Shown here: in pieces, positions 1,108-21,370 of the stretch
How positions within the stretch are numbered: position 1 is the stretch's first letter
Layout: each line of letters starts with the position of its first letter
From: a virus
IMG/VR virus record: IMGVR_UViG_3300038416_000012
Coordinates: 1-23,587 of that record
Length of the DNA stretch: 23,587 nt
Reading direction: 5' to 3' (one strand)
Notes under the pieces: model-generated
The model's input: the letters and a program-made list of their open reading frames with translations, nothing else
Databases searched by the model: none
What the model was told of the DNA's origin: nothing
Made by a program: the position numbers and the translations under genes

Positions 1108-1230
1108 TCAATTACCCACGCTAAAGCTGTGGGCTTGTATCTCCTTCGACTTCTTTAGGGATACAATAGGCTGATTGACTACAGCCCTCGAAGCAATATT
1201 CTTAGCCGCGTTTATATCGGCGTTTTCAGT
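1090..1230 (-). ncRNA. Probable omega/reRNA region at the TnpB element right end
   Basis: TnpB proteins use an RNA transcribed across the 3' end of their own gene and the element right end. Within the last codons of tnpB lies an imperfect hairpin, CCCAC-a-GC-TTTA-GC-GTGGG (minus strand, 1133-1115), of the kind seen at IS200/IS605 right ends. The guide would be the bases just beyond the right end, at or just below 1107, inside the viral flank. Boundaries are inferred from the family and no promoter was identified. Confidence 0.4.
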
Positions 1231-2232
1231 GTGTCCACACGCAACGCAAACAAACTCGCTCTGTGTCTTGCGGTTCTTCTTGTCGATGTGTCCACAACAC
1301 GAGCATTGCTTCGACGTGTATTTCGGGTCAACTACAAAAGTAGGAACCCCGTTCAACTGCGCTTTGTAGTCGATGAATTGGCGCAGTTGTCCGAACGCCC
1401 ACTTACCTAGTCTCCCTCGTTGAGCCTTTCTAACCGTTACCTGAGAGCGTATATGCGTCAAATCCTCTAACGCTATCACCCTCTTTGTGTCTTTGGCTAT
1501 TCCTACGATTATCTTAGAAATACAATGATTAAGGTTCGTTTTGAACTTGCGTTCTTTTCCGCTTGTCCGCTTTAGATGTCGCTTCGCACTCTTGGTTTCT
1601 TTCGACTGAAGCGCTGACTTCAGTTTAGTGTATTTCACTCGCACGTTATCGGCTTTCTCTCCGCTGAAGTGCTGACCGTCGCTTGTGGTTGCTATGTTGA
1701 CGAGTCCTAAGTCCACGCCTAAGCAGCCTTCCGCATTGTATTGCACATCCTCATCAACCTCAACAACCACACAGAGATAGAACGTGCCTTTTTGGAGTAT
1801 CAAGTCGGCTTGCCCTCTGATTCGTCTTTGGTCAAGTTGAGCATACTCGCCAACCGAGAACGGGATAAGGAGCCGTCCGCTGAGTGTCAGAATTGAAACC
1901 GCATCGAGTGACTTGAACGATAATATTCTTTGGTCATAAACGACGGCGCTGTGCGGTTTGAATGTATGAAGTTCTTGCCGATGCCCTTTGCCTCGATATG
2001 ACTCTGAGACTTTGGCTATCGCTCTGACCGCTAACTGTGCCGATAAACCGTAGGTATCTCGAATATAACGATAATGCTGCTTTTGAAGCGTCCGCTTGCC
2101 GAATACTCGCTCTTGATATGAAGCAGACGAAACGTAGTTGCACGCCTCATTGAACCGTTCCATAGTGGTTAAGAGGGCTTGCCGTTGCTCGTCGGTTGGA
2201 TTGAGCTTTGCTTTGACGGTTAAAAGCATCAT
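1108..2232 (-). CDS. tnpB: TnpB RNA-guided endonuclease (IS200/IS605 family)
   Basis: This 374-residue protein has the full TnpB architecture: an N-terminal wedge/REC region (to about residue 165), then a split RuvC nuclease. The RuvC acidic residues are present as GVDLG (D174), ALEDL (E256) and NADINAAKN (D339). Between the last two lies a zinc ribbon with CSCC at 310-313 and CVAC at 329-332. Length is typical and no inactivating change is visible, so it is probably active. Such proteins cut DNA beside a short element-specific motif using an RNA from the element's right end, which helps the element persist after TnpA excises it. No tnpA is in the window, so movement would need one in trans. 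The start is ATG-ATG with no clear Shine-Dalgarno. Confidence 0.93.
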   Translation of the reverse strand: MMLLTVKAKLNPTDEQRQALLTTMERFNEACNYVSSASYQERVFGKRTLQKQHYRYIRDTYGLSAQLAVRAIAKVSESYRGKGHRQELHTFKPHSAVVYDQRILSFKSLDAVSILTLSGRLLIPFSVGEYAQLDQRRIRGQADLILQKGTFYLCVVVEVDEDVQYNAEGCLGVDLGLVNIATTSDGQHFSGEKADNVRVKYTKLKSALQSKETKSAKRHLKRTSGKERKFKTNLNHCISKIIVGIAKDTKRVIALEDLTHIRSQVTVRKAQRGRLGKWAFGQLRQFIDYKAQLNGVPTFVVDPKYTSKQCSCCGHIDKKNRKTQSEFVCVACGHTENADINAAKNIASRAVVNQPIVSLKKSKEIQAHSFSVGN

Positions 2233-10636: not shown

Positions 10637-11863
10637 TCAGAAGTACGTACTCGACACCGCGCTGTTGAGGAAGTACGCCAGGTCTGGTGCGATCTGTTCC
10701 ATGCCCATTGCCATCTCGGCTTCGAGTCTCATTGCCTTCCTCCACTCCAGGCGGAAGTTACGCACAGCGAACCAGCCTGCTCCACCTGAGCCTTGTATGT
10801 TCTGATAAGGCCCACCAGAGCTGAGGTAGCCGTTCCAGCCGAAGGTATATCCTGCGCTTGGCGTAAGTATCGAGGGCGTTGGGTTGCTGTAGCAGAGCAG
10901 AGCATCGTTGCCGTATGCAAAGCCATAGCTTGCACTTGCGCCTTCTGCTGCCGAGTTTACCACACACATCGGTATGATAACACGGTCAATGCTGAACACT
11001 TGTGCAAGAGCCTGTTCACTGACAACAGCCGGAGCGCCAGGCGTTCCACCGAACTTTATCCTCTCAATGATTTCCGGATGGACAATCAACGCTTCGTAGA
11101 CTTGCGGGCCTAGTACGAGTGTATTAGGCACAAAGCCAGTCTGTTGAGCGATAGACAATCTATACTTCCGTATCGTTTCGATTGGCGAGGAGTTTAGCTG
11201 GTCGTCGAACTGGACAAACTTGTAGTCAGTTGGGTCGCTTGTGACTTCGGCTTGCGTGTTGCCTGTTGCCTGGTTCGACCAGACGCCAGGGGTGAAGTAG
11301 TTGGTCACAAACTCCATCTCACGCGCCAAAAGAAGCTTCTGCGTAAGGAATAGTGAAATATCCCTCTGCATGTTCAACGGAGCATCGGCGTTAGCCGCTA
11401 CCGCATCGCCAAGGTCAACGTGTAGGCCCCAGACATCGCACATGTAGGTATTCTTCATGTTGATGCCGTAGCCGGTACCAGTGGTCTCAGCGCCGTCTAT
11501 TCGGACTTTGGCTTCATTCGTGAACCAGTAGTCCTTGTTGTACGACACGTAGTAGTCGCTTTTCTTCTGTACAGGTATCAGCGGGAATATATTAGCCGAT
11601 TGGAACTGCGTTTGGCTTTGGATATATGCCACTGAAAACGTCGTGTTCGGGACGTTAACGTGCACGTCGTAAACAGTGGGTTGACTCTTGGTCAACGTGA
11701 CGTGATCGGGCATCGTCCACGCTTCGCTGATGTCGTCGATGTATCCGGCTTTAGTAAGTCGTGAGGCTGCGCCGTGTAGTCCGGCTTGGCCTAATCGCGC
11801 TGCGTTCCCAGAGAGTCCCATATTAGGAGTGAACGACGCGACGTTTCTAAATCTAGTTGCCAT
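10637..11863 (-). CDS. Major capsid protein
   Basis: The 408-residue product has the length, position and pattern of a phage major capsid protein (gpE/HK97-fold type). Recognisable parts are FPLIPVQKKSDYYVSYNKDYW (the F/L-P-V segment common to these families), RDISLFLTQKLLLAREMEFV (spine-helix-like), a PNTLVLGPQVYEALIVHPEIIERIKFG segment, and a final GWFAVRNFRLEWRKAMRLEAEMAMG with P-domain and A-domain character. It has a strong AAGGAGAAAAAC upstream of its ATG. Residues 59-81 repeat a motif found near the C-terminus of the portal. The preceding genes encode the protease and scaffold, as expected for HK97-type assembly. Confidence 0.9.
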   Translation of the reverse strand: MATRFRNVASFTPNMGLSGNAARLGQAGLHGAASRLTKAGYIDDISEAWTMPDHVTLTKSQPTVYDVHVNVPNTTFSVAYIQSQTQFQSANIFPLIPVQKKSDYYVSYNKDYWFTNEAKVRIDGAETTGTGYGINMKNTYMCDVWGLHVDLGDAVAANADAPLNMQRDISLFLTQKLLLAREMEFVTNYFTPGVWSNQATGNTQAEVTSDPTDYKFVQFDDQLNSSPIETIRKYRLSIAQQTGFVPNTLVLGPQVYEALIVHPEIIERIKFGGTPGAPAVVSEQALAQVFSIDRVIIPMCVVNSAAEGASASYGFAYGNDALLCYSNPTPSILTPSAGYTFGWNGYLSSGGPYQNIQGSGGAGWFAVRNFRLEWRKAMRLEAEMAMGMEQIAPDLAYFLNSAVSSTYF

Positions 11864-11877
11864 TTTTGTTTTTCTCC

Positions 11878-12711
11878 TTAATTGGTGATTATGTGGACTT
11901 CCAGGGCGCCTGTGTCACTGCCGAAGGTCGTCGTCTGTGCGTAGTGGATCGTAAGCGTGTCCGTTGGCACAAACGAGTTGTTGATCGTCGGGGCTGCCCC
12001 GTTACTGATTATTTGGTACTCTGTGGCTGTGGTGCTGAGTGCAACGGTCGACTTGGTTGTGCCTGACGAGTATAGGTTTCTTGTTACTCCGCCTGTGGTT
12101 AGTATCAGGTCTAGTGATCCTACTCCTGAGCTCGATCCGGCAGTGGCCGTATACAATACGTAAAAGCCGACAATAGAGCCCGTAAAGCCTAGAGGTATGC
12201 CTGCAATAAGGTTGCCGGTCGCGGTGAGGTTCGTCTGCTTGATGCCGCCGAACATTATCTGGCCGGCGTGATACGTCGCGCCCTGCGGTATGCCTATTCC
12301 TACACGTATGTCGTGTATCTCACCGGCTCCGCCGCATACATCCTGGCTCATCATCCCAACGATAACGTCGGTTCCGGCTACACCGGGGCCGAGGGTGCCG
12401 TTGGTATCGTAAACCTTGAGACCTTGGCCTGGGTTCGCTGTCGTGCCCATATATGCTTTACTGTGCCCGACCTCTGTTACGGTCGCAATATCTCCTGCTG
12501 TTGGGTCGTTTTGTAGTATCCCCCACGCCTGATTTGCTGGTACTGTAACCGCTCCGATCGTCTGAGCAGAGGTAGAGGCAATATACATCTTGCCGTCAGT
12601 CCCCATCATGACCGCTCTGAATTGCGCTGTGTTAGGGGTGAAAAGCCCTGTGCTTGAAAAGTCTTGCCCAGCTATGTAACTCATTTGCTGGACTGGTGCA
12701 TCGCCGACCAT
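11878..12711 (-). CDS. Capsid decoration-like protein with C-terminal beta-sandwich
   Basis: The 277-residue protein is beta-rich. Its first 140 residues resemble DUF2190-type head decoration proteins: RAVMMGTDGKMYIAST, AWGILQNDPTAGDIATV and EVGHSKAYMG. The second half (about 145-277) looks like an independent beta-sandwich, with GFTGSIVGFYVLYTATAG and TTTATEYQIIS segments. Decoration proteins bind the outside of the head and stabilise it or bind host surfaces. AGGAGGT, reaching into the end of the upstream gene, precedes the ATG. The location directly before the capsid gene supports the call. Confidence 0.75.
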   Translation of the reverse strand: MVGDAPVQQMSYIAGQDFSSTGLFTPNTAQFRAVMMGTDGKMYIASTSAQTIGAVTVPANQAWGILQNDPTAGDIATVTEVGHSKAYMGTTANPGQGLKVYDTNGTLGPGVAGTDVIVGMMSQDVCGGAGEIHDIRVGIGIPQGATYHAGQIMFGGIKQTNLTATGNLIAGIPLGFTGSIVGFYVLYTATAGSSSGVGSLDLILTTGGVTRNLYSSGTTKSTVALSTTATEYQIISNGAAPTINNSFVPTDTLTIHYAQTTTFGSDTGALEVHIITN

Positions 12712-12713
12712 GA

Positions 12714-13709
12714 TTATCTACCTCCTAAAACACGGGCGAGGTTTTCGTTGTACCCCTCAGGGTCTGCGTGAACGATATCCGTGTATGCCTGTTCGTAGGT
12801 GACTGCTCCACCGCTCTTTCTAACGGCTTCTTTTGCCAGGGCGTCCCATCGGACAAGTGGATCCTGTGCGTCAGTACCGCTCTCGGCTTCGGAGCCGAAC
12901 TCAGCGAACAGATCGCCTTTAGCAAGCATCTCTTCGTGAGCGTCTAAAAGCTGGATAAACCGCTTAAAATGACTCTCGTCCATTACATCCCCTGCATACT
13001 TAAGCAGTGGGATGAAGTCCGGGCCCTTCGCAATGTGCTCGTAGGAAGCGGCTTTCTGGACATAGATACGGTCAACCGCATCACTTTCCAGCTTCTCGAT
13101 CCTTGCGTCTTTCTCTACCATCATGCGGTAGAGCGGACGGACAGCTTTCTGAACGTCCTCTGGCAGGAGGTCGATATCCTCTTTCTTTTCGATCTTTGCG
13201 AGGGCTTTTTCAATATCTGTTTTCTTCATTTTCGTAGCTCTCGATTTCGTGGTGCCGTCACCATCACCATCACAACCATCGTCATCATCGTCGTCGTCTC
13301 CGTCATCAGCAGGCTTAGAAGCCTTAGCGAATCCAGAGAGTTGAGCGATCTTGTCGAAGGTATCAGAAGGTAATTCATCAGCGACGCTCTTGGTAAGCTT
13401 CACTGCGCCTGTTAAGGCTTCATACGCTTCAGGTGGCAGCCCAGGAAATGCTTTTTGTACTTCTTCGCTATCGTTGGTCTCTTGTTTGAGCACGTCGATA
13501 GCGAAGGCTGCATCTTCTGATTCTGACATAAAACTAGACTCCGTTAACCCTTTAGTGAGCTTTATGCGCTTACGCGCAGCTCCACGGGTAACCAGATGTA
13601 CCCCTCCTTCTTTAGAGAGGTTGACATCTTCTAAACGAGTAGGGCCGTGTTCGCCTTTATTTAAAGAGCTAAGGCTAAGTGCATCATTTGAATAATCTTT
13701 AGTGTTCAC
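12714..13709 (-). CDS. Scaffold-like protein carrying an XkdF C-terminal tail
   Basis: The ORF is 331 codons long from GTG. Residues 24-54 (TRLEDVNL, VHLVTRGAARKR, IKLTKG) match the tail usual for XkdF-like proteases, which ends in 'slVdrgAn...f.lvK'. The rest is acidic and helical, with charged helices around 165-245. It has an aspartate run near 135-150 (DDGDDDDDDDG). That part is probably the head scaffold. A better scaffold start is ATG at 13529 (residue 61), with GGAG nine bases upstream. The ORF is in the same frame as the protease upstream, separated by one TAA and eleven open codons. Confidence 0.78.
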   Translation of the reverse strand: MNTKDYSNDALSLSSLNKGEHGPTRLEDVNLSKEGGVHLVTRGAARKRIKLTKGLTESSFMSESEDAAFAIDVLKQETNDSEEVQKAFPGLPPEAYEALTGAVKLTKSVADELPSDTFDKIAQLSGFAKASKPADDGDDDDDDDGCDGDGDGTTKSRATKMKKTDIEKALAKIEKKEDIDLLPEDVQKAVRPLYRMMVEKDARIEKLESDAVDRIYVQKAASYEHIAKGPDFIPLLKYAGDVMDESHFKRFIQLLDAHEEMLAKGDLFAEFGSEAESGTDAQDPLVRWDALAKEAVRKSGGAVTYEQAYTDIVHADPEGYNENLARVLGGR

Positions 13710-13742
13710 CTGAGCCTTGGTACTCTTCTCGTTTCGCTCGCT

Positions 13743-14267
13743 TTACGGGCTTTCCGGTATGCGTAACCCATTTCCATCGATACTATACGCGCCGAATTCG
13801 CCGCTCTCAACGCGCTTTGTTAGCGTATCGTTTATTCTGGTGTACAGCACCCAGTCGTCTTTTTTGACGTACTCCGGCCCATCGAACGTTTCGAGGGTGA
13901 AGTCAACGGGAGCGATAAAGCTCTCCACCGGCACAGCTTGATCCGATTTTACGGGTTTAACGTGGTGGGCTCCTACAGGGCCATAAGAGCTTTGCGATTT
14001 GATCGCATTAGCGAGATAGTCACGAGCCATCTTACGCAGGTCATCAGGATACATAAAATCCTTCTGCGTATCTAGCTCACAGGCTTCCCCCTTATGGCAC
14101 GCTGAGTACACAACACCGACCACGACGTTATCGGATTCGGCCTTCAACAGTCGTGCGGTATAGTGCCGGGTTGCTGCTGATTTCTGTATCGTCCTAAAAT
14201 CGTTTTGTGCGTTTATATAGCTTGCGTGTATCTCTTTAGAAACGGCGGCTTTTTCGGGCCGCCTCAT
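13743..14267 (-). CDS. XkdF-like prohead protease, ends early
   Basis: The 174-residue protein shows the XkdF-type protease core: NVVVGVVYSAC as first strand, ELDTQKDFMYPDDLRKMARDYL, GAHHVKP (H101/H102, candidate catalytic histidine), AVPVESFIAPVDF (S116, candidate nucleophile), WVLYTRINDTL and ESGEFGAYSIDGNG. Such proteases trim the scaffold and capsid during maturation. Start is TGATG, overlapping the upstream stop by one base. The product ends right after the G(A/F)SIxG motif, whereas related proteins continue for some 50 residues. Those residues seem to be encoded in frame past the TAA. Confidence 0.84.
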   Translation of the reverse strand: MRRPEKAAVSKEIHASYINAQNDFRTIQKSAATRHYTARLLKAESDNVVVGVVYSACHKGEACELDTQKDFMYPDDLRKMARDYLANAIKSQSSYGPVGAHHVKPVKSDQAVPVESFIAPVDFTLETFDGPEYVKKDDWVLYTRINDTLTKRVESGEFGAYSIDGNGLRIPESP

Positions 14268-15661
14268 CAGTTTTTTTGGTAACGTGCCTCAAGACTTTTA
14301 GCCAGCATGAGCCTTTTACGTTGGAACTCCTGCTCAGCACGAGGTACGCCGAGCTCAAGCAGTATCGGATGTGGTAAGGTAAAGTCTATATCTCTACCTA
14401 ACAATTTCTTTACAGTATGTCCTAATGCAACCCTAACCATCTTATGACCTTTCTCGATGCGGTTTAACTCAGTATCAAACCAGTCAGACCATTTTTCGAT
14501 TTCATCTGTATTTGGTTCACGAGGTGTGCCATTATCGTGCTTACGCAGGTGTGGTACAAGATACATAAACGCAATATCGTTTCGAGTCAGGTTAAGCGGT
14601 TTTAGATACCTCTCATCAAAGATCCTGCCAGGTTTGCCGGTCATCGCTGACTTACGGATTGTATCGTTTGGACTTGGTGATGCCGCGATAAAGAGCACCT
14701 GGGCACGAGGACCAATGTATGTTTCAACATCTAACTTTTGAATGTTGTCTGGAGCATCTTCACCTATGTCTTTGTAGTAGCTTCTGAGCGTTGTTTTCAT
14801 TGATGCGAGTTCATCCGGTGGGATACCTTTTGACTGATTGATTCGTCCCGCTGCTGCTGCAAGTGCTGTTCTGTTTATTTTGAACTGTCCGTTGATTATA
14901 TCTCCAACAGGGAACTTAAAGTCAGAAAGCTTGTTTGGGTTTGGTGCGCTCCACAGATAACCTCTTTTGAGCTGGCTGAAGTTAATGTCGCCATCGGCGT
15001 TCGTAGCTGCTGCAACCATACGCTTTTGTGCTGCACCGGCGTCCCATGCTCCTGTATCCGCTATCGGTGCGTCTTGTTTACCATGAGCGTCCTTATCGAC
15101 ATCTTCTTTGCTCATATTCTGGCACGCGGTCCGTGTCTTCTCACAGTCCTTTTCGGCTTCAGATCCGGTTTCTCCAGCTTTCTCTTTCAGTTTCATACAG
15201 TTATCTACGACACCTTGACAACCGCCAGCCTTCTCGACTGATTTTTGGGATTGCTGTACTGTGGTGTTAGGTGGGGTTTCCGGACCTGAACCACCTTGCT
15301 GGCATGGTGGACACGCCGGACAATCGGGGCAGCCCTGTGATGACGGTGAAGTCTGGTCGGTGTTGTTCATGCCACTGGGTAAATCCTGTTTGCCGATTCC
15401 TTGTTCAGCATTAACGTCTTGCTGCGTAGCAGCTGCTTGTGCTGACTCGACCGCCCCCTCTGCTGCGGTTTGCGCTTCTTGTGCTGCGGCTCGTCTGTTT
15501 TCAGCAGCGGCCATGCCACCAGCTTTAGGCATCACTTGCTGGTGTAGTTTCTCCCAGACCCCTGGGGGTAAATACTGCTTGACGCTTTCAAACATCGCGT
15601 CAACGTATTGCGGACTGTATGTTCTTTTTTCGATTTCGACTTCTTCAACAGTTTCATTCAT
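14267..15661 (-). CDS. Capsid-maturation partner fused to a uracil-DNA-glycosylase-like domain
   Basis: The 464-residue protein has four parts. Residues 1-95 are helical, Ala/Gln-rich. Residues 96-200 hold a linker with CPDCPACPPC (111-120) and scattered cysteines. Residues 227-302 (KRGYLWSAPNP, FPVGDIINGQFKINRTAL, AAAGRINQ, SYYKDIGED) match the region found in XkdF-type protease polypeptides. Residues 318-442 resemble family-4 uracil-DNA glycosylases: QVLFIAASPSPND, GRIFDERYLKPLNLTRNDIAFMYLVPHLR, PREPNTDEIEKWSDWF, VALGHTVKKLLG and TLPHP. The first motif lacks the usual GExPG, so activity is uncertain. It is coupled to the protease by TGATG. Confidence 0.7.
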   Translation of the reverse strand: MNETVEEVEIEKRTYSPQYVDAMFESVKQYLPPGVWEKLHQQVMPKAGGMAAAENRRAAAQEAQTAAEGAVESAQAAATQQDVNAEQGIGKQDLPSGMNNTDQTSPSSQGCPDCPACPPCQQGGSGPETPPNTTVQQSQKSVEKAGGCQGVVDNCMKLKEKAGETGSEAEKDCEKTRTACQNMSKEDVDKDAHGKQDAPIADTGAWDAGAAQKRMVAAATNADGDINFSQLKRGYLWSAPNPNKLSDFKFPVGDIINGQFKINRTALAAAAGRINQSKGIPPDELASMKTTLRSYYKDIGEDAPDNIQKLDVETYIGPRAQVLFIAASPSPNDTIRKSAMTGKPGRIFDERYLKPLNLTRNDIAFMYLVPHLRKHDNGTPREPNTDEIEKWSDWFDTELNRIEKGHKMVRVALGHTVKKLLGRDIDFTLPHPILLELGVPRAEQEFQRKRLMLAKSLEARYQKN

Positions 15662-15684
15662 CTCTACTTTGGTCCTCTCTAAAT

Positions 15685-16509
15685 TTATCGTTCATATGCG
15701 CGCTTCTTCGGAATCTGCTTCGGTTTCTGAGATTGAACCATTCTGTAAAAATCATTCTCAGATAACTCTTGACCATTTACCGTGACCCCACCTTTACCAT
15801 ACATACTCATTGGCGGTAGTCTTGGGGCCATTTTATTCGGGTCAGCGAGTAAACTACTCGGGTTATTTGACGTCGTAGCTTGTGGTCTTTGCTTTTCTAT
15901 TGACCTAAGCATCGCTTCCTGTTGCTCTGCGCTAGGCTGTGGTCGGCCATCATGAGGCATTAACATCGCATGTCTGACTTCATGCTGTCTTTCTATCTCT
16001 TCATCGTGTAAGGTAAGCAAATAGGTAAGCGCGATCTCGGGGGTGATTTGCATAGCACTAAGCATTGCTTTCTCAACGGCAGAGATACCCGGGCGTGACA
16101 ACATACTGGCACGCATGCCGTCGATCATTGCGTCCCAGCGTTCGAGTAAATCTCCAGACAGGTCAAGCTTGAACGGCTTAAGTTTCTTCTTTTTCTTGGC
16201 TGCTTTGGCGAACTGCGCCTCTATTTCTTTTTGCTTGGCCTCGAACTGCTTGAGCTGTTCTTCTTCTTGACTTGCTTGGAGTGCGGCGAGTGCTTCGGGT
16301 TCGGAGGCAGTTGAGATAGCTTCTAAGAACTCAACGTCTGCGGTTTCTTCGGTTGGTTGTTTCTCTTGCTCTGGAAAGAGTTTATCATGAAGTTCTTTTT
16401 CGATTTCTTCAATGCTCTTTTTATCGGTAGGCTCAATTATAACCTCAGCTTCCTTCTTCTTAGTGACTTTCTTAGTTTTAGGTTTAGCTTCTTTTTTTTC
16501 AGCTGGCAT
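15685..16509 (-). CDS. Lys-rich head-associated protein, unknown
   Basis: The 274-residue product begins with a strongly basic tail of about 20 residues rich in KK pairs, then acidic helices (IEEIEKELHDKL, ISTASEPEALAALQ), a coiled-coil-like EEEQLKQFEAKQKEIEAQF, a KKKKKLKP cluster near 107 and a helical domain with LERWDAMIDGMRASML. The C-terminal third is low in structure, ending with VTVNGQELSENDFYRMVQ. I recognise no family. It has a near-perfect AGGAGGATTTA Shine-Dalgarno that overlaps the stop of the small upstream ORF. Position between portal and maturation genes suggests an internal head role. Confidence 0.72.
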   Translation of the reverse strand: MPAEKKEAKPKTKKVTKKKEAEVIIEPTDKKSIEEIEKELHDKLFPEQEKQPTEETADVEFLEAISTASEPEALAALQASQEEEQLKQFEAKQKEIEAQFAKAAKKKKKLKPFKLDLSGDLLERWDAMIDGMRASMLSRPGISAVEKAMLSAMQITPEIALTYLLTLHDEEIERQHEVRHAMLMPHDGRPQPSAEQQEAMLRSIEKQRPQATTSNNPSSLLADPNKMAPRLPPMSMYGKGGVTVNGQELSENDFYRMVQSQKPKQIPKKRAYER

Positions 16510-16518
16510 TAAATCCTC

Positions 16519-16611
16519 CTAAACGTGAAATATAATTCCGTAAATCATTTCAGCAATGAGAACACCGGCGATTATGATTATGAGCTCTTGCAGACATTCT
16601 TTTATGTTCAT
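16519..16611 (-). CDS. 30-aa membrane peptide
   Basis: A 30-codon ORF starts six bases after the stop of the upstream membrane-protein gene. The peptide starts MNIKECLQE and is then almost wholly hydrophobic (LIIIIAGVLIAEMIYGIIFHV), one transmembrane helix. No Shine-Dalgarno is visible, so coupling to the upstream gene is likely. Its stop overlaps the Shine-Dalgarno of the next gene, so it fills the gap exactly. I could not assign a function. Small holin-like or regulatory peptides are possibilities. Confidence 0.55.
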   Translation of the reverse strand: MNIKECLQELIIIIAGVLIAEMIYGIIFHV

Positions 16612-16617
16612 TAGATT

Positions 16618-16893
16618 CTAGAAGTGGAATATGAAATGCGCTATGAATATCCAGACCAACGGCCATCCTATGAACATGAACAAAGCAAATGCCGCTTGCC
16701 AGTCTTTTGGTGTATCGGTGATGTCTTTAAGCGCATTGTCTAGTTCTTTCTTTTCTTGTCTTGAAAGCGGTCGCGTTGTTTCTCCGTCTTTGATTACGGA
16801 GGCTTTTAACAGGTCGCTCTTCTTGACTACAACTTTCATTGGCTCATCAAGACCGAAGTCTTCAGGATCGTTCCACACGTTCTTGACCTTCAT
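16618..16893 (-). CDS. Small C-terminally anchored membrane protein
   Basis: The 91-residue protein is charged and helical for its first 65 residues, then has a hydrophobic segment at about 68-91 (AAFALFMFIGWPLVWIFIAHF), rich in aromatic residues, so it is probably tail-anchored. CGGAG precedes the ATG by about seven bases. It lies within the portal-to-capsid gene run, where membrane proteins are not usual, and a second membrane peptide follows it directly. Holin-like or membrane-remodelling roles are possible but not shown by sequence. Confidence 0.72.
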   Translation of the reverse strand: MKVKNVWNDPEDFGLDEPMKVVVKKSDLLKASVIKDGETTRPLSRQEKKELDNALKDITDTPKDWQAAFALFMFIGWPLVWIFIAHFIFHF

Positions 16894-16948
16894 GCTCTGG
16901 CTCCGTTCCTGTTTTACTTAGATACCACGTTCGATATTCTTCAGTCAT
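16862..16948 (-). CDS. Possible 28-aa overlapping ORF
   Basis: The ATG overlaps the stop of the 36-aa ORF (ATGA), and the ORF covers the only gap before the next gene, overlapping that gene's start by 32 bases. It encodes a hydrophilic peptide beginning MTEEYRTWYLSK. The coupling geometry favours it, but it is short and could be chance. Confidence 0.3.
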   Translation of the reverse strand: MTEEYRTWYLSKTGTEPEHEGQERVERS

Positions 16949-17055
16949 TTAATCTCTCTGAATGGACAGTTACTGATATGGTGTTTGAGCTCCCGTTTTA
17001 GCTCATCTATTTGTCTTTCTAACTCTTTAATCCAGTCAACAGTTTCTTTGTCCAT
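16945..17055 (-). CDS. 36-aa coiled-coil ORF after the portal
   Basis: The ATG lies one base after the portal TAG (TAGTATG), with GAGG a few bases upstream. The 36 residues form a heptad-like amphipathic helix (VDWIKELERQIDELKRELKH) followed by a Cys-containing tail. The portal itself ends in a similar coiled-coil (IQALEERVATLEKMI), so the two may interact. No family is recognised. Confidence 0.6.
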   Translation of the reverse strand: MDKETVDWIKELERQIDELKRELKHHISNCPFREIK

Positions 17056-17056
17056 A

Positions 17057-18847
17057 CTACGCCTCGGTTATCATCTTCTCAAGCGTCGCCACACGTTCTT
17101 CCAACGCCTGTATCTTCTGGACTTTATTAACCCGCTTTTTCTTCTTGCCTTTAAGCCCTGGTATATACGCAACACTAAACTCATCCGTTGGGCTATTCAC
17201 GTGCACATCTGTACTAGTCGGTTCGCTCTTTGCGGTTTGAGCTGGCACAGTTGTTCCTGGCGTTCCTGCTAATGTGTACGCTCCAGGATACGGGGTTTCT
17301 TCGTTAAGCGGCTGCGCTCGTTCTCTTCTACGTGCTGGCACCTGTCCAGGTAGCAACGAATCGACCGGCGTTGTGCCTGGTGCGTCTGGCTCTGGTTCAA
17401 GCGGTAGGTGTGCAAGTCGCCACAGTGCGTTTCTAAACTGAACGTCGTCCGGTATTGCAACTCCGCCTCTAGCGACGTTGTTAAGGAAAATCCCCAGATC
17501 GCTTAGTTCCGAGCTTGCTACTTCACCGTGCACTAACCTCGGCATACTTGCAGGGTTTATATCGGGGTTCATCTGCGCTAGTCGTGGAACAGCATAGGAG
17601 TTTATCACTGAACAGATAGAATCTAAAATCGCTGTAATGCTGAGGCTAAACAGGTTATTCCGGGTTTCTGCTAATGCGTACGATCCTGTTGTATCCTGTC
17701 CAAGCATAAGGAAATCTGCTAGAACAGACATTGCGATTAACTTATTGTATCGTTGAATCCCAACATCCGGGAGTAATTGCCTTTGTGATTGTGGGCCTAG
17801 TAATTCAATAGAATACATCTGCCCGCCGCCGCGTTCAGGTGGAAAAGAATTACTTGGTAATACATACCCTTCGTCCTGGTTTCGTTTTAAGTTGCGGACG
17901 TACCGGGTAAGTAGCTGCATCATTGCGGTTGAAGTTGGATCGACGCCGGTTATGACTTCACCTGGAGCACGTATCACAGGAACACCGGCTAAGTCTCGTT
18001 CATACCCGACCATTTCGATTTCTTCTAGCAGCTTTTTAAACTCATACGCCCTGTATGCGCCTCTGAAAAGACTTACGCCTTCTGGGTTGCCCTTGCGTGG
18101 CTTTATCCTGAAGAGTAGCATTTTCTCTATGGGAATTTCAGTTATCTGGAATTTAGGTGGTGCGAGTTGTCTAAAACCTCTAATACCGCCGTGCTCGTCA
18201 AAGTGCCAGTTTAAAAGCGTTTCCTGAGCTCTTGGAGCTAACTTTCTCCATCCTATTCGGCCATCGTCGTAATTTGAATCAAGTGTAGAATCTTCTGGGT
18301 GTGGGCCCTCTCTTTTCTTGTAAACTATCTCAGCAATAGAGTAACCAAATACACCACAACTTAGGATATCCGGCAATGTGTCTTCCCAGGATGTGCTCAT
18401 ATCCTCCCAGCACTGTTCGTAGAACGTAATTGACTTTGCTAATTCCGGGTCTTGCAGGTTGCCGTTTGAATCGCGCTGTCCGTCAATCTCCCACCAGAAA
18501 TTTACACTTCGACAGATCATCTCTACGGTGTACCAGATGGCCGAGATAACAGCGTCCATGTCCCGCATTTCTTTCCATTTGCGGACGCCTCTGGTGTATT
18601 GGAGTTGTTCAAGCCACTCTTCATAGACATACGGCGGGACATACATGAGTCCCGTGGTGCCGTATTCCTGGAACCAGTTGATATTAGGTGGCAAGCCTGG
18701 TGCGCTTGGGCCGTAACCCATTAAGTCACCATAACCTAGTGATGGAAATCCTGTCGCATCCATTGGCTGATCGGTAAGGTCAAATCCTTTAGCTATGATG
18801 CTATTCCGTGTTTCAGCAAAATCAGTTATTCCGTTTGCTTTTACCAT
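17057..18847 (-). CDS. Portal protein
   Basis: The 596-residue protein has the pattern of DUF935/Mu gp29-like and related portals. Visible are KWKEMRDMDAVISAIWYTVEMI (residues about 90-112), a WEDMSTSWEDTLPDILSCGVFGYSIAEIVYK helical clip-like region, ETLLNWHFDEHGGIRGFRQL, LFRIKPRKGNPEGVSLFRGAYRAYEFKK, and later MLLTRYV-type helices with QDTTGSYALAETRNNLFSLSI. Twelve copies form the ring through which DNA enters the head. A long Pro-rich, probably disordered C-terminus (480-540) is followed by a motif at 540-562 shared with the capsid protein, a KKKK patch and a coiled-coil. Start ATG has AAGG and GAGG upstream. Confidence 0.88.
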   Translation of the reverse strand: MVKANGITDFAETRNSIIAKGFDLTDQPMDATGFPSLGYGDLMGYGPSAPGLPPNINWFQEYGTTGLMYVPPYVYEEWLEQLQYTRGVRKWKEMRDMDAVISAIWYTVEMICRSVNFWWEIDGQRDSNGNLQDPELAKSITFYEQCWEDMSTSWEDTLPDILSCGVFGYSIAEIVYKKREGPHPEDSTLDSNYDDGRIGWRKLAPRAQETLLNWHFDEHGGIRGFRQLAPPKFQITEIPIEKMLLFRIKPRKGNPEGVSLFRGAYRAYEFKKLLEEIEMVGYERDLAGVPVIRAPGEVITGVDPTSTAMMQLLTRYVRNLKRNQDEGYVLPSNSFPPERGGGQMYSIELLGPQSQRQLLPDVGIQRYNKLIAMSVLADFLMLGQDTTGSYALAETRNNLFSLSITAILDSICSVINSYAVPRLAQMNPDINPASMPRLVHGEVASSELSDLGIFLNNVARGGVAIPDDVQFRNALWRLAHLPLEPEPDAPGTTPVDSLLPGQVPARRRERAQPLNEETPYPGAYTLAGTPGTTVPAQTAKSEPTSTDVHVNSPTDEFSVAYIPGLKGKKKKRVNKVQKIQALEERVATLEKMITEA

Positions 18848-18913: not shown

Positions 18914-19342
18914 CTACATCATTCGTAACATCTTAACTGCTCTATCATCACCATTTATTTCGTGTATCTTAATGTGTTCTTCAATTGGTAAACAAAGAAG
19001 ATTTACGGGGTTGTTATTCGTTCTGTCTTTGTCTTTGTGATGTACGTGGTATCCCGTTGGTATTCTAACCTTGAAATGTTGTTCCCATGACCTTCGATAA
19101 TCAGTGTAAAACGCTGGCTTATAATCGCTGGAATCCGTAACTTTACCGAAACACATTTCTCCTTTTTCTTTTTCCGGCACGTCTACGTAATATCGTGGAA
19201 ATGAACGCTTACACAGCCCTCGTTGTTTAACTTCGCCGGACGTTTCTACTTCTTTTGTTTGAAGAAATCTACGGTTGTACTCTTTAGCATCCGCCCGTAG
19301 CTCACTAAGGTATTCGTCTAATGTTATGTCTGATCTAGTCAT
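18914..19342 (-). CDS. HNH endonuclease
   Basis: The 142-residue protein ends with a clear HNH module: GYHVHHKDKDRTNNNPVNLLCLPIEEHIKIH, with the HH pair at 101-102, N114 in the PVNLL strand and H123/H127. The N-terminal 90 residues have no recognised domain. HNH proteins next to terminase genes may assist DNA packaging, as for HK97 gp74, or be free-standing homing nucleases. Here the gene lies between the nuclease part of a split terminase and the portal, which leaves both options open. Only a weak Shine-Dalgarno precedes its ATG. Confidence 0.85.
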   Translation of the reverse strand: MTRSDITLDEYLSELRADAKEYNRRFLQTKEVETSGEVKQRGLCKRSFPRYYVDVPEKEKGEMCFGKVTDSSDYKPAFYTDYRRSWEQHFKVRIPTGYHVHHKDKDRTNNNPVNLLCLPIEEHIKIHEINGDDRAVKMLRMM

Positions 19343-19384: not shown

Positions 19385-20329
19385 TTAATTTGGTGGTTCC
19401 TCACCACCACGGAAAGGTTTGTCTTCATCCATTGCTAGGTTTGGTAAACGTCTACCTAAATCACTTGCCGGTAACTCTCCGCGTGGCCCGTGAACTGCAA
19501 TAGGCGGATATGGTGTAACACTAGACGCCTGATCACGTTTTAACGCCCACCAGCAGACTAAACATAAAGCAAATACTAAATCGTCATGATCTGACTCGCG
19601 CCACGCTTCGTAGCTTTCATGGCGTGTCCTCTCGTTAATCTTAATCCTAAAGTTCTCAATTTCTCTGATAAGTACGTCTTTATGCTCAAGTCCGTCATCA
19701 ATCTTCAAGAGCTTTTTACCCAACATCGCCTTAGCAGCGCCAACCAAATCTTTCTTAGGCACGTTCCAAACTCCGTTTCCAAAGTTATCATTCTGGCCGC
19801 CGGTCACGTTTACTGGTACACATTTGAGTCCTGATTGCGTGAACATATCGACAATCGGCCTGCCTACGCCTGTGGCATCAACAACAAGACCAACCTGGGC
19901 CCTTGTTAATAGCTTCGTAACCAGCGTAGAGATCCAACGTACGATATCGGGATACGCTGTGCCTTTTTCTAACCGTTCGCAGAATCTAATGTGGTAGGTT
20001 TTGCCTATTGGAGTCTCTTGCGTTACTTTAGCGACTGCGCTTCTGACTGCGCTTTTACCTGTTGCATCACCTATGCCGCTTAGTTCAAACGAATCCCTTG
20101 ACGTTGGTGGAGGTGGAATTAGTTTTGCTTCGGTGCATTCCATTACTGCTACTGCGGTAAAATCGGCAGCTTGTCCAAGGTCTAGGCCTACGAAAAACGT
20201 CCTGTTAATTGAATACTTCTTAGCGCATTCGAGGCAGATAATAAACGGCGCATGGTGTGTTGAGAGTTCGTCTGCTGAGGTAATGGTCTTGTGACAGGCG
20301 TTGCACTGTATATCTTCTTTATCAGCCAT
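19385..20329 (-). CDS. Terminase large subunit, nuclease part, with N-terminal zinc ribbon
   Basis: The 314-residue product has the RNase H-like nuclease of phage terminases as a separate gene. VGLDLGQAADFTAVAV carries D50, GLVVDATGVGRPIVDMF carries D151, and ESDHDDLVFALCLVCWW carries D247/D249/D250, fitting the three acidic positions that bind metal. The nuclease cuts concatemeric DNA at start and end of packaging. Ahead of it residues 9-35 form a zinc ribbon-like CxxC...CxxC (C9, C12, C32, C35), which standard terminases lack at this point. The start overlaps the 65-aa ORF by eight bases, and the C-terminal 45 residues are Pro/Gly-rich. Confidence 0.85.
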   Translation of the reverse strand: MADKEDIQCNACHKTITSADELSTHHAPFIICLECAKKYSINRTFFVGLDLGQAADFTAVAVMECTEAKLIPPPPTSRDSFELSGIGDATGKSAVRSAVAKVTQETPIGKTYHIRFCERLEKGTAYPDIVRWISTLVTKLLTRAQVGLVVDATGVGRPIVDMFTQSGLKCVPVNVTGGQNDNFGNGVWNVPKKDLVGAAKAMLGKKLLKIDDGLEHKDVLIREIENFRIKINERTRHESYEAWRESDHDDLVFALCLVCWWALKRDQASSVTPYPPIAVHGPRGELPASDLGRRLPNLAMDEDKPFRGGEEPPN

Positions 20330-20519
20330 CTTTTCGCTTTATCTTTCCGATCTCAAGCTCTACCCTATTCCGTTCTTCTTCGAGGTATTTGTCTCGTTCA
20401 GCTATTGCTTGTAACTCATCTTTTTGTGCTTGTGTAAGGTGAGCGTATTTATACAACTCTACAAATGCTATTTCAAGCTCAGTTACTCGGTCTTCAAGTG
20501 GTGTTGTCATATTCCCCAT
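20322..20519 (-). CDS. 65-aa helical ORF between the two terminase parts
   Basis: This ORF overlaps the ATPase gene by 13 bases and the nuclease gene by eight, so three genes are translationally linked. The product is nearly all charged helix (LEDRVTELEIAFVELYKYA, AERDKYLEEERNRVELEIGKIK), probably a coiled-coil. Starts at residues 1 and 4 are both possible, and GGATGGGG precedes the second. It could bridge the two terminase halves, but nothing in its sequence proves it. Confidence 0.68.
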   Translation of the reverse strand: MGNMTTPLEDRVTELEIAFVELYKYAHLTQAQKDELQAIAERDKYLEEERNRVELEIGKIKRKDG

Positions 20520-21370
20520 CCTAGACTATCAATCATACCGCGTGCAATAGGCTTATCTGGAACTGGAACATCAAGTTCGCCAGTAACGGGATCAAAAAGC
20601 GGTTTAACCTCTTTTGAGAAGGCATTTTCTATTTCTTCAATACTAAATACGCCTTCTTCGTTCTCTCGAAACTCACACATGTATTCCTGCATGAAGTAAC
20701 GGTCGCCTTTGGTGCGCTCAGTATCTAAAAACTCTTTATCTATCCTCGGACATTCTTCGGCAGTTACGCGCACCTTAAACCATCGCTCTTCGCTTTTCGT
20801 CCATTCTTCGTAAAAGAAGCCACTCCGGCCTTTAGGGGTTGAAAGCAACACGAGTTTGCCATGTGATACGGCAAGCATTGGGCGCACTGCATCATAGAGG
20901 CTGTTAACAACGCGAGCGGCTTCGTCCACAATAAGAAGAGATACACCACTATAGCCCCTGACTGTCTGTTCGTTTCCAGGGAGTGCAACGATCCTGGACC
21001 TGTTTGCGAGCTGTATGGTGAGGGCAGTTTCAATGATACTTGCCATTGGGTGGCCTATATCTTTATAGTACCACATTATCTTTTTAAACAACTCACCTGA
21101 TTGCCGGATTGTTGGGGATAAGACAAGCACAAGAACCCCTGGATTGTTTAAAGCGTGGTGTAATGCAAGAATCGCCGTAATGGTGCTTTTTCCAGACTGT
21201 CGAGAACAGTTAAGGATAATCCGCTTCTCTTTTGAAGATAAAATCTCCTTCTGCCAAGGATCTGGTTCAATGAACTGCTGGGCAAACTTGATTGGGTTAA
21301 GCGCGAGTGCAAGCGTTCTTAACTCGCCTGTGTCAAGGTTGCCAAATTCCTGTTCAAGGCTACTTATCAT
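20507..21370 (-). CDS. Terminase large subunit, ATPase part
   Basis: The 287-residue protein contains the packaging ATPase: an adenine-type PWQ motif (38-40), Walker A RQSGKST (57-63), Walker B LLIVDE with the catalytic glutamate (145-150), coupling motif LLSTPKG (175-181) and EYMCEF at 229-234. A full-length large subunit would continue into the nuclease, but this one ends with a tail of about 45 residues and a stop. The nuclease follows as a separate gene. After the stop the frame is closed again within eight codons, so simple readthrough would not join them. GAGGAAG in the end of the terS gene precedes the ATG. Confidence 0.92.
   Translation of the reverse strand: MISSLEQEFGNLDTGELRTLALALNPIKFAQQFIEPDPWQKEILSSKEKRIILNCSRQSGKSTITAILALHHALNNPGVLVLVLSPTIRQSGELFKKIMWYYKDIGHPMASIIETALTIQLANRSRIVALPGNEQTVRGYSGVSLLIVDEAARVVNSLYDAVRPMLAVSHGKLVLLSTPKGRSGFFYEEWTKSEERWFKVRVTAEECPRIDKEFLDTERTKGDRYFMQEYMCEFRENEEGVFSIEEIENAFSKEVKPLFDPVTGELDVPVPDKPIARGMIDSLGWGI

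Follow-up and report, generated by a model that had tools for sequence, protein, structure and literature searches.

The stretch of DNA examined here, referred to as the window, is a virus record of 23,587 bases (IMG/VR record IMGVR_UViG_3300038416_000012). Its minus strand carries a block of head genes coding for a terminase, a Mu-type portal, a Peptidase_S78_2 protease, a candidate scaffold, and a major capsid protein (MCP) with the HK97 fold. This work concerns a peptide of 23 residues that is found twice in the block, once in the N-terminal arm of the MCP and once in the tail of the portal, and whose front part, called the tag below, recurs on other head proteins of related phages. The features concerned are the following (aa, amino acids; AF2, AlphaFold2; pLDDT, predicted local distance difference test; L numbers denote related loci).

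10637..11863, minus strand: MCP gene, 408 aa, HK97 fold (phrog_1005 major head protein, E 7e-66).
11621..11689, minus strand: MCP N-arm motif, capsid aa 59-81, KSQPTVYDVHVNVPNTTFSVAYI (sequence comparison, AF2).
11645..11680, minus strand: core tag inside the arm, capsid aa 62-73, PTVYDVHVNVPN, recurring on proteases, scaffolds, and other head proteins of relatives.
11690..11863, minus strand: 58-aa N-terminal extension of the window-clade capsid, ahead of the arm (alignments).
12714..13709, minus strand: candidate scaffold, between the protease and capsid genes, with the acidic stretch DDGDDDDDDDGCDGDGDG; untagged here, its homologs in loci L331, L224, and L069 are tagged.
13743..14267, minus strand: prohead protease (Peptidase_S78_2/XkdF; PF14550, 46 bits); untagged here, tagged in many relatives.
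17057..18847, minus strand: portal gene, 596 aa (PF06074 Portal_Mu, 89.1 bits against a cut-off of 23.9; phrog_113, E 1.3e-58).
17231..17386, minus strand: disordered linker, portal aa 488-539, between body and tag (AF2, pLDDT <50).
17162..17230, minus strand: portal copy of the MCP N-arm, aa 540-562, KSEPTSTDVHVNSPTDEFSVAYI (sequence comparison).
17132..17152, minus strand: basic patch KGKKKKR, portal aa 566-572, after the tag (sequence).
17063..17140, minus strand: C-terminal helix (predicted coiled coil), portal aa 570-595 (AF2), restricted to the window's own sub-lineage.

The Foldseek matches of the capsid AF2 model were HK97-fold capsids, with 3bjq as the best, and the score of the capsid against Pfam Phage_cap_E (PF03864) was 22.2 bits, under the curated cut-off of 22.9. 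In the monomer model of the MCP, the front half of the arm (aa 65-73) was unstructured (pLDDT <50), and confidence climbed from about aa 80. The portal model was disordered over aa 488-572 (pLDDT <50), with the motif inside this segment and a helix following at aa 570-595. This agrees with the original prediction, made from the sequence of the window, that the portal motif follows a disordered linker and precedes a coiled coil.

Capsid aa 59-81 and portal aa 540-562 are identical at 16 of 23 residues without a gap, both on the minus strand, and the coordinates, strand, and count given in the original prediction were exact. The Smith-Waterman score of this pair (79) was the highest among the 435 pairs formed by the 30 proteins of the window, and the optimal alignment consisted of exactly those 23 residues, so that the claim of non-aligning flanks was borne out. 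The resemblance exceeded that of shuffled sequences, since 5000 capsid shuffles gave a mean score of 37.7 and a maximum of 77 (Gumbel p 1.8e-5 for the pair, about 0.01 once corrected for 435 pairs). Similarly, across 300 shuffles no ungapped 23-mer had more than 11 identities, against the 16 observed. When the portal peptide was searched against the whole record, two copies only were found, with the capsid copy at E 1.1e-6. At the DNA level, the two copies have 42 of 69 bases in common and use different codons at 10 of the 16 identical residues. These shuffle statistics are good, and by themselves they are not overwhelming. A chance resemblance was rejected mainly because the motif recurs in relatives and covaries with the capsid, as described below, and the controls led to the same verdict.

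The two copies differ in their distribution. In annotated relatives (KPP23, RDJL Phi 1, ValentiniPuff, Tedan, Mulvp2, and others), the MCP starts at or near the motif, for example with MKPTPGDVHVNRPLSNVSVAYIQ, whereas window-clade capsids have roughly 40-58 extra residues before the arm, which most relatives are without. A full portal copy was kept in portals about 62-98% identical to that of the window (L005, L006/L007, L133, L148, L132, and L172), and these full-motif portals form one clade with a support of 100/99. In the sister clade, portals with half of the motif are mixed with motif-less ones. The portals of L183 and L184 contain only the front half (GQPSAGDVHVNAPLGGKKKKAKR in L183), and those of L178, L179, L181, and L182 contain no motif. 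No motif was found in portals at about 33-47% identity, and some at 56-58% lacked it as well, so a motif universal in portals was rejected. In total, 10 of 99 distinct portal tails carry the motif, with a score gap between 43 and 32; several loci are near-identical and non-independent contigs, and counts were therefore made on distinct sequences. A search of cellular genomes with the portal alignment found nothing. In the capsid, the motif is the original N-arm shared by the entire MCP family; in the portal, it is a derived trait of a single clade. The original prediction that both shell components carry the motif holds in the window, but the relationship is asymmetric, being family-wide in the capsid and clade-restricted in the portal. 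It had also counted a trendless occurrence in one of the two proteins alone as evidence against itself; the occurrence found follows a clear phylogenetic trend.

Compared with the window, the full-motif portals are 67-74% identical in the core and 48-65% identical in the motif, and the tail around the motif is much less conserved (linker, 42-50%; tail end, 15-24%). The portal copies have derived features of their own that are not found in capsids, namely acidic residues after P and before FSVAY, followed by QG..PKKKK. Between the portal copies of L006 and L133, 11 codons differ synonymously and 5 nonsynonymously.

Some further features of these proteins were observed. The capsids with the N-terminal extension of 40-58 aa belong to the genomes with a full-length portal copy, and related capsids without it belong to genomes with half or no portal copy. 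The portals at L183:9833-12661, L184:1-2658, and L009:6234-9059 have in-frame insertions of about 340 aa. L183 matched an intein splicing domain (44.9 bits), and L183 and L009 gave weak LAGLIDADG matches, so that the portals with these insertions probably contain inteins. In addition, the portal N-terminus has the NGITSF peptide in duplicate (PNGITSFPESPPNGITSF) in L133:7514-9370 and L148:2395-4227, and has a single copy (NGITDF) in the window.

An arm profile was run across all open reading frames (ORFs) of the related loci, and copies were found beyond the capsid and the portal. The recurring part is the front half of the arm, P[T/S/G]xxxVHV[N/D]x[P/I][L/M], usually followed by a lysine-rich run; nearly all tags have this run, with a mean of 5.5 K/R per 12 residues. 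Among the tagged non-portal ORFs tested, 9 of 10 were Peptidase_S78_2 prohead proteases above the curated cut-off, 4 more were confirmed later, and 45 distinct tag sequences were identified on such proteases of related phages. In a motif-free scan anchored on the capsid, which covered same-strand ORFs, the 99th percentile was 65 for portals and 52 for proteases, compared with 29 for 2556 other ORFs. A DNA pattern scan (VHVDxIMxxK and VHVNxPLGxK) yielded 70 tag-bearing ORFs, comprising 62 S78_2 proteases, 1 portal, and 7 others, a set that is skewed toward the patterns used. The last class includes the candidate scaffold of L331 and small basic ORFs of 98-107 residues with a capsid-like N-terminus (L317, L320, and L265). 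The tagged candidate scaffolds of L331, L224, and L069 are related by iterated profile to the product of window 12714-13709, and a head-morphogenesis-type protein (L212) is also tagged. Weak, uncharacterized tag-like matches in L084, L242, L280, and L330 were excluded from the main claim. As a control, VHVDxIMxxK was searched in 257 Gb of bacterial and archaeal genomes, which gave 19 matches, none of them in a protease of the S78_2 family. A tblastn search of phage records with one protease tag gave no match, and every tagged phage found is an environmental contig.

The position of the tag varies. Of 52 complete proteases with a tag, 36 have it at the C-terminal end, 7 ahead of the catalytic domain, and 9 at an internal site following that domain. 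Several long ORFs (L063:14337-17324, L097:18772-21288, L078:14119-16620, and L306:327-3110) code for an S78_2 protease fused to further domains, which include Zeta toxin, DUF5872, DUF6321, DUF5824, and a minor head protein, and the tag is located between the protease and the extra domain.

The tags resemble the capsid of their own genome. For 33 distinct capsid-tag pairs compared over 12 positions, tags shared 6.85 identities with their own capsid and 5.90±0.19 with permuted capsids, and 0 of 10,000 permutations did as well as the true pairing. In 12 non-redundant pairs, the corresponding values were 7.5 and 6.03±0.32 (0/10,000), and when the variable positions of these pairs were considered, 3.42 and 1.81±0.33 (0/10,000). 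For example, VHVD[TS]I[MA] tags accompany capsids that read VHVDAIL, and P-type tags accompany VHVNxP capsids. In L306, QPTSTQVHVD is common to the capsid and the protease, with the same codon at 5 of 11 identical residues, and in L317, IYNPSGSGNVH is common to the capsid and a 98-aa ORF. These sequence comparisons show that the tag matches the capsid N-terminus of its own genome better than the capsids of other genomes. The search of related viruses and the co-variation check proposed in the original prediction thus gave a portal-clade trend and tags that covary with their own capsid.

Taken together, the distribution and covariation of the peptide suggest that it is, on balance, a procapsid-recruitment tag that imitates the N-arm of the MCP encoded by the same phage. 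The site that receives the MCP N-terminus during assembly, either on the scaffold or in a groove of the neighboring MCP, would also receive the tag, and a tagged portal or protease would thereby be tethered flexibly to the inner face of the shell as it grows. The portal tag of the window mimics nearly the whole arm, through FSVAYI, and could fill arm sites that are vacant around the portal where the penton is missing. Because candidate scaffolds are themselves tagged in three lineages, the shell is favored over the scaffold alone as the receptor, although this does not settle the matter. The proposal of a common docking peptide for the scaffold, protease, or a decoration protein was therefore sustained in part: the peptide is of docking type, recurs on proteases and candidate scaffolds, and covaries with its own capsid, but the scaffold and protease of the window have no copy.

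Several observations weigh against a recruitment tag of this kind. A portal tag and a protease tag never occurred in one genome (7 and 16 genomes, 0 with both), which is not predicted by a simple model in which all internal proteins are tagged. No recognizable tag was found in 46 of 69 distinct genomes of the capsid family that have both a portal and a protease, nor in nine reference phage records (KPP23, RDJL Phi 1, Ottawa, Salgado, ValentiniPuff, Tedan, Mulvp2, RHph_Y52, and an unannotated fecal record); therefore, the tag is not universally needed. The tagged candidate scaffolds fit poorly with the scaffold as the sole receptor. Moreover, relatedness affects the covariation counts, and the non-redundant set controls for it only partly.

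The strongest rival explanation is a shared cleavage site, in which the motif is recognized or cut by the S78_2 prohead protease, so that the MCP N-terminus, the portal tail, the candidate scaffold, and the protease are all cleaved and the site co-evolves with the specificity of the enzyme. We consider this explanation possible and rather doubtful. The tag sits on the usual substrates of prohead proteases, the protease itself among them (often at its C-terminal end, in 36 of the 52 tagged complete proteases), and a cleavage site could account for the same distribution. T4 gp21 processes itself as well as the MCP, the core, and internal proteins, and the protease of SPN3US acts on the MCP, the portal, and itself (PMC5694885, PMC9026906). 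However, the conserved stretch of about 12 residues plus the basic run is far longer than the known short prohead-protease motifs, the MCP starts at or near the motif in most relatives, which leaves hardly any propeptide to remove, and the portal copy runs on through the structural half FSVAYI. Recruitment and subsequent removal are also compatible, as the T4 targeting sequence does both (PMC9026906).

Independent convergence on a short hydrophobic beta-strand (VHVN/FSVAYI) with a different use in each protein is unlikely. The core is short, and the VHV alternation fits beta-augmentation; however, tags covary with their own capsid with the variable positions included (3.42 vs 1.81±0.33, 0/10,000), and the enrichment is confined to head-assembly proteins. 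It is also improbable that the basic run of the tag serves to bind DNA or some unrelated internal factor and that the likeness of the tag to the MCP N-terminus is secondary. A lysine-rich run in a DNA-filled compartment would suit this function, but a basic run alone needs neither the copying of VHV[N/D]x[P/I][L/M] nor covariation with the capsid. Finally, recent recombination or gene conversion from the capsid gene, which the original prediction had offered as a late event and which would have left a functionless portal copy, accounts for the same sequence in two neighboring late genes of one genome, but it was rejected as very improbable on codon divergence (10 of the 16 identical residues in the window, other pairs being alike, with extensive synonymous divergence) and on the conservation of the full portal copies through one clade while the tail around them diverges, to which the portal-specific derived features and the presence of the peptide on unrelated proteins can be added.

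Encapsulin cargo-loading peptides are terminal peptides of cargo proteins that dock inside an HK97-fold shell. This is similar to the docking proposed for the tag, but their carriers are cargo enzymes of a cellular compartment. To our knowledge, no encapsulin cargo peptide has been described as a copy of the shell's own arm, and we know of no report that the capsid targeting sequence (CTS) of T4 copies the MCP N-terminus. In T4, the internal proteins IPI-III and Alt carry their CTS as an N-terminal propeptide, 10-19 residues long, that targets them to the core and is cut by gp21 (PMC9026906). It resembles the tag as a short peptide with diverse and exchangeable carriers, and it brings internal head proteins into the prohead, as the tag is proposed to do. 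The tag differs in being N-terminal, internal, or C-terminal, in occurring mainly on the portal or the protease, and in matching the N-arm of its own MCP. The N-terminal short-propeptide position of the T4 type was not found, as the tag is C-terminal on the portal and on most tagged proteases and variable elsewhere; the proteins bearing it are annotated as portals, proteases, candidate scaffolds, and proteins of head morphogenesis.

The MCP N-terminus of P22 and SPP1 is bound by the scaffold at the procapsid stage and reaches out to neighboring capsomers afterwards (PMC9965877, PMC6813328). It is a docking element of procapsid assembly in these phages, reported on the MCP alone, whereas here the element is repeated on the portal, the protease, and other proteins. 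In R4C, antiparallel N-arms carry the penton-hexon contacts (PMC10276861). The P1 defense protein DarB, which is ejected, has an N-terminal packaging signal of 30 residues, and this terminal peptide suffices to send a reporter into the capsid; in the accessible part of that report, no relation of the signal to the MCP N-terminus is described (PMC9024508). Flexible segments also link the 12-fold portal and the 5-fold shell in HK97 (PMC10275583) and T4 (PMC7136217). HK97 uses the MCP's own scaffold domain at the portal vertex and T4 a structural morphing, and a portal tail mimicking an MCP arm is not described in the consulted portions of either source. No paper on such a motif was found in searches of an open-access library, from which most subscription papers are absent.

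Other genes of the window were also noted. A TnpB-like gene (1108-2232, minus strand) lies within the structural block beside tail-type genes (Cas12f1-like_TNB, 84.8 bits; OrfB_IS605, 32.2 bits). The terminase large subunit is apparently split (19385-21370, minus strand) into an ATPase ORF (20507-21370) and a separate ORF (19385-20329; phrog_27743) that occupies the position of the nuclease half, and an HNH endonuclease gene is close by (18914-19342). In the head block, a 464-aa ORF (14267-15661, minus strand) has a C-terminal domain of the Uracil-DNA-glycosylase superfamily (25 bits) and a low-complexity N-terminal part.

The admission of the portal, the protease, and internal proteins to the procapsid is understood in few model phages only. 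If the recruitment tag is real, a peptide that copies and co-evolves with the N-terminus of the shell would be a simple, readable address code. Internal head proteins would then be predictable from sequence, a testable mechanism for the incorporation of the portal and the protease would be available, and the tag would provide a handle for loading cargo into phage shells. More tentatively, twelve flexible arm copies on the portal might plug the arm-binding grooves that the missing penton would otherwise occupy, so that mimicry fastens the 12-fold portal in the 5-fold vertex, with related phages recruiting their protease likewise. If that holds, mimicry, and not a scaffold or structural morphing, would join the portal to the vertex in these phages.

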